A stretch of DNA of 64,000 nucleotides from Pseudomonas sp. B6002 (GTDB taxonomy: Bacteria > Pseudomonadota > Gammaproteobacteria > Pseudomonadales > Pseudomonadaceae), in the NCBI RefSeq assembly GCF_013385985.1, contig NZ_JACAOY010000010.1, forward strand, positions 233,071 through 297,070. The letters are read 5' to 3'. A program made the translations under genes and the position numbers. The notes under the pieces were generated by a model. The model saw nothing but the letters and a program-made list of their open reading frames with translations. It was not told where the DNA came from and did no database searches. Below, piece by piece: positions 11,118-60,032 of the stretch (the first letter of the stretch is position 1; each line of letters begins with the position of its first letter).

Positions 11118-11204
11118 TGTGGGAGCTGGCTTGCCTGCGATAGCGTCACCTCGGTTGAACTGAAAGACCGAGGTGCCTGCATCGCAGGCAAGCCAGCTCC
11201 CACA
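11118..11204. repeat. REP pair (convergent), GTGGGAGCTGG type
   Basis: Inverted TGTGGGAGCTGGCTTGCC arms flank a spacer that is itself partly palindromic (CACCTCGGT and ACCGAGGTG). It separates pyrC' from the converging TM2 gene. Confidence 0.9.
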
Positions 11205-12583: not shown

Positions 12584-12677
12584 ACTGTGGGAGCTGGCTT
12601 GCCTGCGAAAGCGGACTGTCAGGCAATATCTGTGCAAGCTGCCAGACAGCTATCGCAGGCAAGCCAGCTCCCACAGT
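12584..12677. repeat. REP pair (convergent), GTGGGAGCTGG type
   Basis: Inverted arms, ACTGTGGGAGCTGGCTTGCC and its complement, lie between the converging peptidase gene and pilT. Each gene stops within about 30 bases of the element. Confidence 0.9.
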
Positions 12678-24581: not shown

Positions 24582-24676
24582 CCTGTAGGAGCCGGCTTGC
24601 CGGCGATGGCGGTGTGTCAGGCAGTTCATTTTCCACCGGTAGACCGCTATCGCTGGCAAGCCAGCTCCTACACGGG
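24582..24676. repeat. REP pair (convergent), GTAGGAGCCGG / GTAGGAGCTGG hybrid
   Basis: The left arm is CCTGTAGGAGCCGGCTTGCC and the right arm ends AAGCCAGCTCCTACA, so the arms belong to different subtypes. The spacer shares GGTGTGTCAGGCAGTTCATT and TAGACCGCTATCGCTGGCA with the element at 20474-20564. Confidence 0.87.
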
Positions 24677-37395: not shown

Positions 37396-37487
37396 TTGTG
37401 GGAGCTGGCTTGCCTGCGATAGCGGTGGATCAGCAATAAATGCACTGGCCGGCAGACCGCTATCGCAGGCAAGCCAGCTCCCACAGT
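37396..37487. repeat. REP pair (convergent), GTGGGAGCTGG type
   Basis: Inverted TGTGGGAGCTGGCTTGCC arms sit inside the presumed operon, between the Tat protein gene and the GMC gene, and may lower downstream expression. Confidence 0.9.
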
Positions 37488-40062: not shown

Positions 40063-40150
40063 TCATCGCAGGCAAGCCAGCTCCCACAGTTGACCGAGTT
40101 CCAACATGAGAATGCGATCGAATGTGGGAGCGGGCTTGCCCGCGATGGCG
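40063..40150. repeat. REP pair (divergent) with conserved linker
   Basis: A reverse REP (CGCAGGCAAGCCAGCTCCCA) and a forward REP of a different subtype (ATGTGGGAGCGGGCTTGCCC) point away from each other. The linker starts TTGACCGAGTTCCAACATGA, a word shared with 51143 and 54226. Confidence 0.87.
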
Positions 40151-43309: not shown

Positions 43310-43398
43310 TGTAGGAGCCGGCTTGCCGGCGATGACGCCAGATCAGGCACTGCATCAGCGCCTGACCCACCGCTATCGCCGGCAAGCCGGCTCCTACA
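43310..43398. repeat. REP pair (convergent), GTAGGAGCCGG type
   Basis: Inverted TGTAGGAGCCGGCTTGCCGG arms just after the rlmI stop. The spacer has its own nested dyad (ATCAGGCACTGC and GCGCCTGA). Confidence 0.9.
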
Positions 43399-46839: not shown

Positions 46840-46927
46840 TGTGGGAGCTGGCTTGCCTGCGATGGCGGCCAGTCAGGTTCATAGAGGCAGCTGACACACC
46901 GCCATCGCAGGCAAGCCAGCTCCCACA
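46840..46927. repeat. REP pair (convergent), GTGGGAGCTGG type
   Basis: Inverted TGTGGGAGCTGGCTTGCC arms between the ilvD terminator and the 3' end of the receptor gene. Confidence 0.9.
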
Positions 46928-49522: not shown

Positions 49523-50470
49523 CTAGGACGCTTTGCCTTCACGCAGCACCAGCAAATAGGGGGTGTAGTGCTCGGCGTGCAGGTTGAGGGTGTATTCCAG
49601 CGCCTTGATCACCGCCTCGGGCTTGTCGATCTCAAACACCCCGGACACCACGCGGTTACGCAGCGCATCGCCCAGCACCAGGGTCTTGCCCGGCCAATAA
49701 CGGTTCAGCTCGCTGACCACTTCCGACAGCGGCTGCTGGCGGAACACCAGTTGCCGTTGGCGCCAGGCAAAGCCGCTGGCCGGGTCGAAGCCATGGACAT
49801 CCGTAAGCCGCTGACCTTGATATTCCACAGCCCGGCCGGGCTCCAAGTAGACCGGATCCCCACTGCCCGCACTGACCTGCACCTTGCCCTGGGCCACTTG
49901 CACCCGCGTCTGCGCCTCACGCCGGGCCACGCTGAACTGGGTACCCACCACCTTCACCCAGCCATCGCCCGACTGCACCACGAACGGCCGGGTCGGGTCT
50001 TTGGTCACGCTGAAAAATCCTTCACCGCGCAGCAAACGAATCTGACGCTCGCCGGCACTCATGCGCACTTGAATCGCGCTGTCGGTGTTGAGTTGCAACT
50101 GGGAGCCGTCCGCCAACTCGACGGTGCGCGATTCGCCAGTGCCGGTAGCGTAATCGGCCCGCAGGCGGTCGAGCCAAGGGGTGTTTTGAACGGTCAGCCC
50201 AACCGCCAGCAATACCGCGGCAGCATAGGCCCAGCGCCGCGCGGGCTTGCGCCAAGCGGCCTGTTCGGCACGGCGGATCACCCGCGCCGGCTCGCGCAAG
50301 CCGCCCAGCATCGCCTGCACTTCCTGCCAGGCATCGTCCTGGGCCTGGCCCTGTCCGAGCCAGGCGGCGAAGGCTTCCATTTCGGCCGAGGTCACGTCGT
50401 CGGCCTGCAGGCGGAAGTACCAACCGGTGGCTTCTTCGAACAGCCCATCGGCAGTGTGTGCAGCGGTCAT
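49523..50470 (-). CDS. FecR-family anti-sigma/sigma regulator
   Basis: A 315-residue inner-membrane signalling protein. The N-terminal cytoplasmic part (EEATGWYFRLQADDVTSAEM to AWQEVQAMLGGL) is the DUF4880 sigma-binding domain, one membrane helix follows (about residues 95-112, WAYAAAVLLAVGLTVQ), and the periplasmic FecR domain has GESRTVELADGSQLQLNTDS and VVGTQFSVARREAQTRVQV. The C-terminal STN-like segment (GDALRNRVVSGVFEIDKPEA) contacts the receptor. The start at 50470 overlaps the sigma gene by four bases. Confidence 0.9.
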   Translation of the reverse strand: MTAAHTADGLFEEATGWYFRLQADDVTSAEMEAFAAWLGQGQAQDDAWQEVQAMLGGLREPARVIRRAEQAAWRKPARRWAYAAAVLLAVGLTVQNTPWLDRLRADYATGTGESRTVELADGSQLQLNTDSAIQVRMSAGERQIRLLRGEGFFSVTKDPTRPFVVQSGDGWVKVVGTQFSVARREAQTRVQVAQGKVQVSAGSGDPVYLEPGRAVEYQGQRLTDVHGFDPASGFAWRQRQLVFRQQPLSEVVSELNRYWPGKTLVLGDALRNRVVSGVFEIDKPEAVIKALEYTLNLHAEHYTPYLLVLREGKAS

Positions 50471-51000
50471 GACCGACGTCCTTGTGTATCGCAGGCGAGC
50501 CGCGTCTTGATGTAGGCGCGGCATTCAATCAGGGCACGACGCAGTTGGTATTCCACGCTGCGCGGGGTGATCGACAGGCGTTCGCCAATCTCGCGGTAGG
50601 AAAGTTCGTCGACATGATAAAGCAGGAAGATCTGCCGAGTCGCTTCGGGCAACGCCAGGATCGCGTCCTGCATCAGTTGCTCCTGCTGGTAGGCGGCCAA
50701 TTGCTCATCGGCGCCCGGGTTGCTGCACGGCAGTTCTTCACTGGGTTCGCCGGCGTCCAGGCGCTCACGGCGGATGGCCTGGCGCTGGTGATCGCGCACC
50801 AGGTTGCTGGCGATGGTGAAGAGGAAGGCAGGGAGGTTGTCGATCTTCTCGCCGCAGTCCATGCGTGCCAGGCGCAGGAACGATTCCTGGGTCAGGTCGG
50901 CGGCCACCTGGGCGCTGCCGGTGCGGCGGGTGACGAAGGCTTCGAGGGCTTTCTTCTGCTCCGCGAACAGGCGCGCGATCTGCGAATTCCAGGAGGGCAC
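50467..51000 (-). CDS. ECF sigma factor, FecI type
   Basis: A 177-residue extracytoplasmic-function sigma factor. Region 2 is VTRRTGSAQVAADLTQESFL to FTIASNLVRDHQRQ, and region 4 has LPEATRQIFLLYHVDELSYR and EIGERLSITPRSVEYQL. Order sigma, FecR, receptor is that of iron-regulated cell-surface signalling systems. Start is a GTG at 51000, chosen because an AAGG site lies about eight bases upstream and no ATG fits. A Fur-like box is about 65 bases upstream. Confidence 0.9.
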   Translation of the reverse strand: MPSWNSQIARLFAEQKKALEAFVTRRTGSAQVAADLTQESFLRLARMDCGEKIDNLPAFLFTIASNLVRDHQRQAIRRERLDAGEPSEELPCSNPGADEQLAAYQQEQLMQDAILALPEATRQIFLLYHVDELSYREIGERLSITPRSVEYQLRRALIECRAYIKTRLACDTQGRRS

Positions 51001-51063
51001 AGCACTACCTTGAGAAGAACGAGAGGTTCAGGAAGTGCGCACGCTAGCAGAGGATGAGATTGG

Positions 51064-51082
51064 TTCGCAATTGATATCTATT
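51064..51082 (-). promoter_or_regulatory. Candidate Fur box upstream of the ECF sigma gene
   Basis: On the minus strand AATAGATATCAATTGCGAA matches 14 of 19 bases of the Fur-type pattern AATGATAATCATTTGCGAA that I used as a template. Position, about 65 bases before the sigma start, fits iron repression. Confidence 0.4.
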
Positions 51083-51113
51083 TTTGCCGTGAGGGTTGTG
51101 GTGTTCTTGGGGT

Positions 51114-51202
51114 CGCTATCGCAGGCAAGCCAGCTCCCACAGTTGACCGAGTTCTAAGATGAGAATGCGGTCCACATGTGGGAGCTGGCTTGCCTGCGAT
51201 GC
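51114..51202. repeat. REP pair (divergent) with conserved linker, start of the 141-bp array
   Basis: A reverse REP (51114-51142) and a forward REP (51176-51202) are joined by the TTGACCGAGTT linker. The forward half and linker continue into the tandem array. Confidence 0.85.
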
Positions 51203-51558
51203 AGACGACTCGGTCTTACTGAATTTCGTCCGGCTTGACGATCACCCAGTTCTTGTCCTCCGTCACCGGCAGCCCTCCCACAAGTGACCGAGTTCCAACA
51301 GGAGAATGCGGTCAACATGTGGGAGCTGGCTTGCCTGCGATACAGACGACTCGGTCTTACTGGATTTCGTCCGGCTTGACGATCACCCAGTTCTTGTCCG
51401 CAGTCACCGGCAGCCCTCCCACAAGTGACCGAGTTCCAACAGGAGAATGCGGTCAACATGTGGGAGCTGGCTTGCCTGCGATGCAGGCGACTCGGTGTTA
51501 CTGGATTTCGTCCGGCTTGACGATCACCCAGTTCTTGTCCGCTGTCACCGGCAGCCCT
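51144..51558. repeat. 141-bp tandem array: pchP 3' end plus REP and linker, about 3 copies
   Basis: Two full 141-base units (51144-51284, 51285-51425) are followed by a third that runs into the real pchP gene (51426-51558). Each unit holds the linker TGACCGAGTTCCAACAGGAG, a forward REP, the pchP stop codon and its last about 20 codons, ending GGCAGCCCT and then CCCACAAG, a REP remnant. Copies 2 and 3 are closest. With the ECF leader this fills the only gap over 300 bases in the window (51001-51497); I see no gene in it. Confidence 0.95.
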
Positions 51559-52559
51559 TCTTTGGCTTGGGCCGCGGCGTGCTTAGCCATCATGCCGTTG
51601 AGTTGGGTCATATATTTGTCTTTGCGGTTGACCCACAGGTGAATGCCGCCCTTGGCCACGTCCACATCGTGGAACAGCATGTAACCGTCACTGCTGGGCG
51701 TGTCGCCGCCCACGATCACTGGTTTTTTCCATTCGTCGATGTAGGTGAGGATCGCCGCGTGCTTGCCCGCCATCCAGGTGGCCGGGGTCCACAGGTATGG
51801 GGTGAGTTCGAGGCCGAGGTTGGCCTTCTCGTCATACTTGCCGGCCGCAATTTGCTTGCGTGCGGTGGTCAGCTCGCCGGTCTTGCGGTCCTTGAGCAGG
51901 GTGCTCACGCCGATAACGTTCTCGGGTTTGACGTTGTAGCCGTACTTGGGATCGGCCGCGACCATGCGCACCAGCTCTTCCGAGGCGGCGGTCATCACGT
52001 ACACCTCGATGCCGTTTTCCATCAGCTTGTTGTACAGCTCGGCCTGGCCGGTGAAGACTTTCGGCGGCTGCACTTCGGAGTTCTTCACCACGTCGCCTTC
52101 GTAATAGGTCACGGGTACCGGCTTGCCGGAAGCCATCAGCTCATCCACGTAGCCTTTGAGTTCCTTGAGGGTGAAGCCGGAGAAGATTTGCGCAACCCAC
52201 GGGTAGCAGACCATGTCGTCCACTTCGCACAGGCGGTAGTAGTAACTGAACAGGCTTTCCTTGTGGTCGGCGGTGTCCTTGAACGGGATCAGTTTCAGGG
52301 ACGGGTCCATGGTGTCGCGGGTGATCAGGCCCTTGTTTTCCAGGTAAGGCAGCAAAGACTCTTCGAGGTCGTAGCGGTAGCTGGTGTTGTCCATGTCGAA
52401 CACTGCGAAGTTACCTTTGTTGGCATTCGCAGCGATCATTTCGTTCAGTTGCTTGGCCGCCGGCGCTGGCCAATGCTTCAACTCGGTGGCGGCAAAGGCC
52501 TGGCTGGCGAGGCCAAGGCAGAAGGCGGCAGAGACCAGTAGTTTCGGCGCAAGCTTCAT
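51498..52559 (-). CDS. pchP: Phosphorylcholine phosphatase
   Basis: A 353-residue periplasmic HAD-superfamily phosphatase that releases choline from phosphorylcholine, downstream of host-lipid breakdown by phospholipase C. A signal peptide (MKLAPKLLVSAAFCLGLASQ, cut near AFA) precedes HAD motif I, FAVFDMDNTSYRYDLEESLL (D55 and D57 of the precursor); motif II-like VYVMTAASEELVRMV and the late acidic motif VIVGGDTPSSDGYMLF are present. The name rests on strong resemblance to P. aeruginosa PchP as I recall it. Its last 20 codons are duplicated in the downstream array. Confidence 0.88.
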   Translation of the reverse strand: MKLAPKLLVSAAFCLGLASQAFAATELKHWPAPAAKQLNEMIAANANKGNFAVFDMDNTSYRYDLEESLLPYLENKGLITRDTMDPSLKLIPFKDTADHKESLFSYYYRLCEVDDMVCYPWVAQIFSGFTLKELKGYVDELMASGKPVPVTYYEGDVVKNSEVQPPKVFTGQAELYNKLMENGIEVYVMTAASEELVRMVAADPKYGYNVKPENVIGVSTLLKDRKTGELTTARKQIAAGKYDEKANLGLELTPYLWTPATWMAGKHAAILTYIDEWKKPVIVGGDTPSSDGYMLFHDVDVAKGGIHLWVNRKDKYMTQLNGMMAKHAAAQAKEGLPVTADKNWVIVKPDEIQ

Positions 52560-59952: not shown

Positions 59953-60032
59953 CGCCTTCGCAGGCAAGCCAGCTCCCACATTTGAATGTGTTCACAAATC
60001 AAAATGTGGGAGCTGGCTTGCCTGCGAAGAGG
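59953..60032. repeat. REP pair (divergent) inside the phosphonate operon
   Basis: Reverse CGCAGGCAAGCCAGCTCCCA and forward ATGTGGGAGCTGGCTTGCC are separated by 21 bases (TTTGAATGTGTTCACAAATC, itself nearly palindromic). It lies between the transporter and enzyme genes. Confidence 0.88.

Follow-up and report, generated by a model that had tools for sequence, protein, structure and literature searches.

The pchP-like gene and the array at its end

The window, i.e. the whole stretch of 64,000 nucleotides that was analysed, carries on its minus strand an intact gene encoding a PchP-like phosphorylcholine phosphatase, followed by a tandem array of REP sequences and gene ends, and then by an ORF which we read as encoding a putative ECF-type sigma factor. 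The name PchP-like is given because of the match to PDB 4as2, the search of the protein against Pfam and NCBIfam having returned no match at E 0.001. Between the pchP-like gene and the downstream ORF lie 497 bp, versus 215 bp in the sister genome, Pseudomonas sp. P7548. The features are as follows, the unit borders being set by the breakpoints with an ambiguity of 2 bp (CT) at the join:

51498..52559, minus strand: intact PchP-like phosphorylcholine phosphatase gene, 353 aa (ORF; PDB 4as2, E 4.6e-184)
50467..51000, minus strand: ORF downstream of the array (ORF list)
51134..51558, no strand assigned: full extent of the periodicity, with three units of 141 bp and a further 2 bp (CT) of microhomology (TRF)
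51118..51140, minus strand: complete REP in reverse orientation, forming the left arm of the original REPIN (motif scan)
51136..51276, minus strand: unit 1, within the intact REPIN; forward REP at 51178-51200, ghost gene end at 51216-51276
51277..51417, minus strand: unit 2, left REP arm reduced to CTCCCACA; forward REP at 51319-51341, ghost gene end at 51357-51417
51418..51558, minus strand: unit 3, left REP arm reduced as in unit 2; forward REP at 51460-51482
51498-51558: gene end of unit 3, the true 3' end of the pchP-like gene
51275..51278, no strand assigned: join 1, gene end to REP arm, GGCAGCC[CT]CCCACA
51416..51419, no strand assigned: join 2, identical in sequence to join 1

This array (51134-51558) is the only one detected by TRF in the whole window. 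It has a period of 141, 3.0 copies and no indels, and its periodic length is 3 x 141 + 2, the excess of 2 being found both by TRF and by refined self-comparison (locus L001). A three-unit tandem repeat of a gene end with its REP, at a period of 141, had been described in a sequence-only reading of the window and is borne out by TRF. The start given there, 51144, is one register of the repeat, but the periodicity extends a further 10 bp leftwards, into the left REP arm: the array starts at the inner end of the left reverse REP, from CTCCCAC. Read on the plus strand, each unit opens with CCCACA and 36 bases of the REPIN loop, continues through a forward REP and a linker, and closes with the complement of the gene 3' end, the latter measuring 61 bp (stop, 19 codons and one base). 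That 141 is a multiple of three, as had been pointed out, carries no evident meaning, each unit having a stop.

The reverse REP at 51118-51140, absent from the sequence-only reading, makes copy 1 part of a full REPIN. The whole REPIN is not repeated in each unit: unit 1 alone adjoins a complete inverted REP, and the arm is truncated in units 2 and 3. The original 84-nt REPIN is predicted to fold, as DNA, into a near-complete hairpin (-40.1 kcal/mol, z -13.6), versus -22.3 (z -3.9) for the 83-nt stretch with a truncated arm (51403-51485). No Rfam match was found over 50900-51800.

Three head-to-tail units that each hold a REP, with flanking DNA repeated alongside, place the array among tandem REP/REPIN clusters. 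Its membership of this wider class stands, as clusters of REP singletons are also in print, according to the accessible part of the description of GTAG-REPs (PMC3733652). In the portion available of the work on P. fluorescens SBW25, 16 ordered tandem REPIN clusters are reported, in which near-identical REPINs are repeated with their flanks (PMC3116915). The array resembles them in that REP and flanking sequence are repeated together in tandem, but its unit consists of one REP, a truncated arm, a stop and 19 codons, and its join has an exact match of 2 bp only. The same likeness holds for GTAG-REP clusters, which reiterate in tandem with flanking DNA of variable length; unlike the pchP array, no gene 3' end within the unit is mentioned in the accessible part of that paper (PMC3733652).

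Derivation from a single-copy ancestor and age of the copies

The nearest named relative found is Pseudomonas sp. P7548 (locus L009; G435:C53), which is about 95% identical at this locus. Its PchP-like protein has an identical sequence, and the 27 differences among the 1062 gene bases are all synonymous. At the site itself, P7548 has a single gene end followed by one intact REPIN. The site spans 465 bp in the window and 183 bp in P7548, and the difference, 282 bp, is exactly 2 x 141. Over 236,501 bp of the contig compared with the sister contig (95.1% mean identity, matches above 1 kb), the pchP array is the sole tandem array with a period of at least 40 on either side.

We then looked for a second gene end at the same locus in other genomes. 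None of the 109 other locus rows has one, all being single-ended; the table has 111 rows, of which two are the window itself, the rows partly repeat the same species, and five of the named loci end early at contig ends. From the 399 genomes of the genus, compared as species representatives, the exact join string was recovered in one only, that of the window, where it occurs twice. Matches to the join with one mismatch in three other genomes were rejected as unrelated, since the loci fetched around them hold no REP of this class when at most 4 substitutions are allowed. Taken together, the one-copy sister, the single-ended rows and the restriction of the join to its own genome indicate that the array is derived here and, by sequence comparison, that it arose in the lineage of the window after the split from P7548. 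The single-copy sister, the spans of 465 versus 183 bp and the 2-bp overlap are the marks of a microhomology-mediated tandem duplication; as read from these alignments, the array corresponds to one join with 2 bp of microhomology and then one further round.

The three copies are not identical. Copies 1 and 2, 1 and 3, and 2 and 3 differ at 10, 11 and 4 of their 141 sites, respectively. Six of the differences setting copy 1 apart lie in the REPIN loop; over the 98 bp outside the loop that were compared with P7548, copies 1, 2 and 3 depart from it at 2, 2 and 3 sites. The amplification had been called exact, which holds for the period and not for the sequence; the two changes noticed in copy 1, ATC to ATT and Ala to Glu, are indeed present. 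In an active variable-number array the copies would be near-identical, whereas here they differ pairwise at 4-11 of 141 sites. An active array was therefore rejected, because the copies bear private changes, and these changes also argue, in a comparison of species representatives, against frequent ongoing gain and loss of units. Judging from this divergence, the array appears aged, neither homogenised nor fresh. The idea of a snapshot of an array under construction does not agree with such privately changed copies, nor with the lack of a second gene end in all 109 other rows. The same differences between copies (4-11 of 141 for each pair) and the position of the array inside a contig of 414,852 bp make an assembly artefact next to negligible, even though the assembly is a draft of 51 contigs.

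Three other species also have tandem REP arrays downstream of pchP, independent of this one and built on other units, with periods of 117 bp (L050), 100 bp (L078) and 111 bp (L083). Thus, the pchP site gains REP arrays repeatedly. This recurrence could be taken in favour of a selected array, in which repeated 3' REPs would adjust the decay of the pchP mRNA or the extent to which transcription continues into the next gene; most REPs are found 3' of coding regions, and a role as RNA elements is possible (PMC3733652, accessible part). However, the present array is found here only, its copies diverge and units 2 and 3 are devoid of a full hairpin, so that we regard selection as highly improbable. 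The ghost gene ends are most likely untranslated by-products, and no sign of function was seen.

The join and its comparison with other REP arrays

In the direction of the gene, the sequence reads CTTGTGGGAG, then GGCTGCCGG, and the exit from the far REP arm falls just past its GGGAG foot. The first duplication, as had been proposed, brought coding sequence and the inner part of a REP arm together on the basis of little homology. P7548 represents the state before it. An AGCC match at the join had also been put forward. AGCC does occur in both partners, inside a gapped and imperfect similarity to the REP, but two bases out of register, and the exact match is limited to CT. A match of at least 2 bp is expected at about 16% of random joins (our own arithmetic, assuming equal base use), so this microhomology proves nothing by itself.

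The similarity to the REP arm that precedes the gene breakpoint was evaluated post hoc, after the join had been seen. With the sequence of the window, 1 of 1029 gene positions equals it when anchored at the join; in its local form, it is matched by 5 of 1029 gene positions and by 68 of 6000 positions in the window. With the sequence of P7548, which is closer to the ancestor, these numbers rise to 31 of 1060 (anchored) and 117 of 1060 (local), so that the local similarity is nothing out of the ordinary. Among random pairs of positions, 562 out of 20,000 equal the join when anchored. Given such weak statistics, the similarity between the gene breakpoint and the REP arm is suggestive at most.

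REP tandem arrays are common in these genomes. By pattern search, direct REP pairs at one spacing range occur at 29 places in the genome of the window, and 9 of 38 genomes were matched. We compared 40 REP arrays (34 distinct ones detected by TRF in the fetched loci, and 6 from further loci) for the length modulo the period given by TRF. Thirty-three of them end in at least 18 repeated bases beyond whole units (e.g. L050, L083, L162 and L174), and the other seven in at most 14: the pchP array (2), L218 (1), L176 (5), L206 (10, beside a run of N), L138 (12), L203 (12) and L156 (14), although finer refinement shifts some of these values (e.g. 6 for L138 and 127 for L203), and for several arrays it failed or an end was cut by the locus, the contig or a run of N. 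Among the 40 arrays, 17 have a REP within 30 bp of each end, 17 others, including the pchP array, have one near a single end, and 6 have none near either. Within this set, the short overlap is thus unusual for a REP array and a REP at one end is ordinary. Our impression of REP homology across the join in nearly all arrays did not survive this recount (both ends in 17/40). According to a purely mechanical ORF test, the pchP array is also the only one of 34 whose unit includes more than 16 nt of a credible gene 3' end. Two other candidates were rejected by eye: in L183, an ORF entering 106 nt into the array was judged spurious by its translation, with a likelier stop before the array; in L170, an ORF across the whole REP array does not make it a coded array, the real protein likely beginning after it. 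L218 (99% match by TRF) is a better candidate than the pchP array for a recent event. In addition, L127 (G000:C48:577282-578241) contains a nested REP array, in which a 492-bp duplication (98-99% identity) encloses units of about 241-251 bp.

The 18 or more repeated bases at the ends of the 33 arrays are in line with the possibility that most REP clusters were made by ordinary homologous recombination, acting on pairs of REPs or on other long repeats. For the pchP array, this origin is very unlikely: the gene side of the join is coding sequence and not REP, the exact match covers 2 bp only, and P7548 has no REP at the corresponding position of the gene. Recombination between REPs was thus rejected for the first join, because of its 2-bp match and of the coding sequence on its gene side.

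A transposase could also have acted. A RAYT (TnpA-REP) would have bound the forward REP on the plus strand, cut between C and T both at the foot of the left arm and in the gene end, and a 141-nt unit would finally have been sealed back in. As far as the accessible text goes, the TnpA-REP proteins studied cut between C and T, 5' or 3' of the REP, on the tagged strand, and joining requires a 3' C (PMC8266576). Both breakpoints and the join of the pchP array are C followed by T on the strand of the forward REP. Moreover, the genome has three matches to Y1 transposases, one of which (L126) is flanked on both sides by REPs of this class with 0-2 mismatches. But CT is only one of 16 dinucleotides, the joins of two low-excess arrays, L218 and L176, break this rule when read by eye, and the gene-side site is far from the hairpin. 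We consider a RAYT origin quite unlikely.

A probable template switch, possible REPIN turnover and significance

The best reading is that of an old and ordinary copying accident, rather probably a template switch at the REPIN hairpin followed by unequal exchange. The ancestor would have had pchP, then one REPIN whose two inverted REPs could fold into a long hairpin. After the split from P7548, copying would have broken off between GGGAG and CTGG, at the foot of the far REPIN arm, and a polymerase stalled in this arm would have resumed about 140 bp back, in the last pchP codons, on an exact match of 2 bp (AG/CT). The product would be a tandem duplication of the gene end, the stop, the near REP and the loop. 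The 141-bp repeats would then have undergone unequal exchange or slippage, and this second round would have given three copies with the same join. The join would have truncated the far REP arm of units 2 and 3, with a full REPIN left in unit 1 alone, and the copies would have accumulated their private changes afterwards.

We infer both the succession of these steps and a switch of template at the hairpin, with the support of the predicted fold and of a precedent in E. coli. Among 90 new junctions in that species, 22 were at REPs, 14 of which were too short for homologous recombination, and the authors proposed secondary structure and template switching for them, as stated in the accessible part of the paper (PMC3161906). 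The pchP array resembles these junctions of lac amplifications by its low-homology REP join and its putative expansion by unequal crossing-over; the E. coli events are large amplifications and rearrangements obtained under selection, whereas the array is natural and based on 141 bp (PMC3161906). A second near-blunt array with its left edge at a REP was found in L218 (G059:C1:6610121; 143 bp x 3.0, 1 bp of excess). The short overlap of 2 bp would also suit the repair of a break by end joining at the REP, e.g. where gyrase had cut. Gyrase binds REP clusters. End joining is nevertheless unlikely, since a tandem duplication would require breaks on two sister copies, and nothing specific here points that way. 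The template-switch mechanism rests on one event, and a breakpoint near a REP is no proof of cause, because a REP at one array end is common (17/40) and this DNA is rich in REPs. A driving role of the REP itself is plausible in view of the published precedent, but has a single junction behind it here.

The core of the REPIN at the pchP site also differs in orientation from that of P7548. Copy 1 has 0.88 identity to the sister core when inverted versus 0.77 in the same orientation, and copies 2 and 3 have 0.93 versus 0.77. The 236-kb stretch contains 45 inverted REP pairs: 32 have an orthologous REP pair in P7548, 11 have the site but no REP pair by the motif used, and no site was found for 2. 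The core is recognisable (at least 0.83) in 14 of the 32, nine in the same orientation and five fitting better inverted, namely at contig positions 203312, 273136, 284189 (the pchP site), 293028 and 343982; this cut-off was chosen after seeing the data (null 95% = 0.76, 99% = 0.84), and at a cut-off of at least 0.84, 4 of 13 cores are inverted. Three of these sites lie in the window (40066-40145, 51119-51199 and 59958-60027, compared with G435:C53). Inversion concerns 4 of 6 conserved pairs with the REP feet inside, versus 1 of 8 with the feet outside (Fisher p 0.09). Minute inversions in the hairpin loops of chloroplast genomes offer a parallel to such core flips. When paralogous cores were sought in the two compared stretches, the best ones for the five inverted sites had identities of 0.69-0.94, which is near the values of the orthologous cores. 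Replacement of the core by a related paralogous REPIN, rather than a flip, is thus possible. Core inversion should thus be seen as a lead from sequence comparison; no paper on it was found in the literature listings, as far as their accessible content goes.

A broader and more doubtful proposal is that the REPIN hairpins of these Pseudomonas may be hotspots of template switching, flipping their own cores in place and occasionally copying neighbouring gene ends into tandem arrays. The pchP site would show both, with its core inverted relative to the sister and its array. At six other window sites (11122-11200, 12590-12671, 24588-24668, 37401-37481, 43314-43394 and 46844-46923), the flanks are conserved in P7548 but enclose another type of REP or another core, which would suggest that REPINs turn over in place.

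Both the tandem repetition of REPs together with their flanks and the occurrence of microhomology joins at REPs have been published before, from what the accessible sources contain. A gene end with its stop inside a tandem REP unit was not found in a literature search where subscription papers were thinly covered. The pchP array alone does not show that REPs drive the process. It offers a clean example, with the ancestral state at hand, of a REP array begun from a join with almost no homology, whereas most of the compared REP arrays (33/40, at least 18 bases) have end repeats sufficient for recombination. It also calls for caution from annotators, as ghost gene ends with stop codons may sit in REP arrays.
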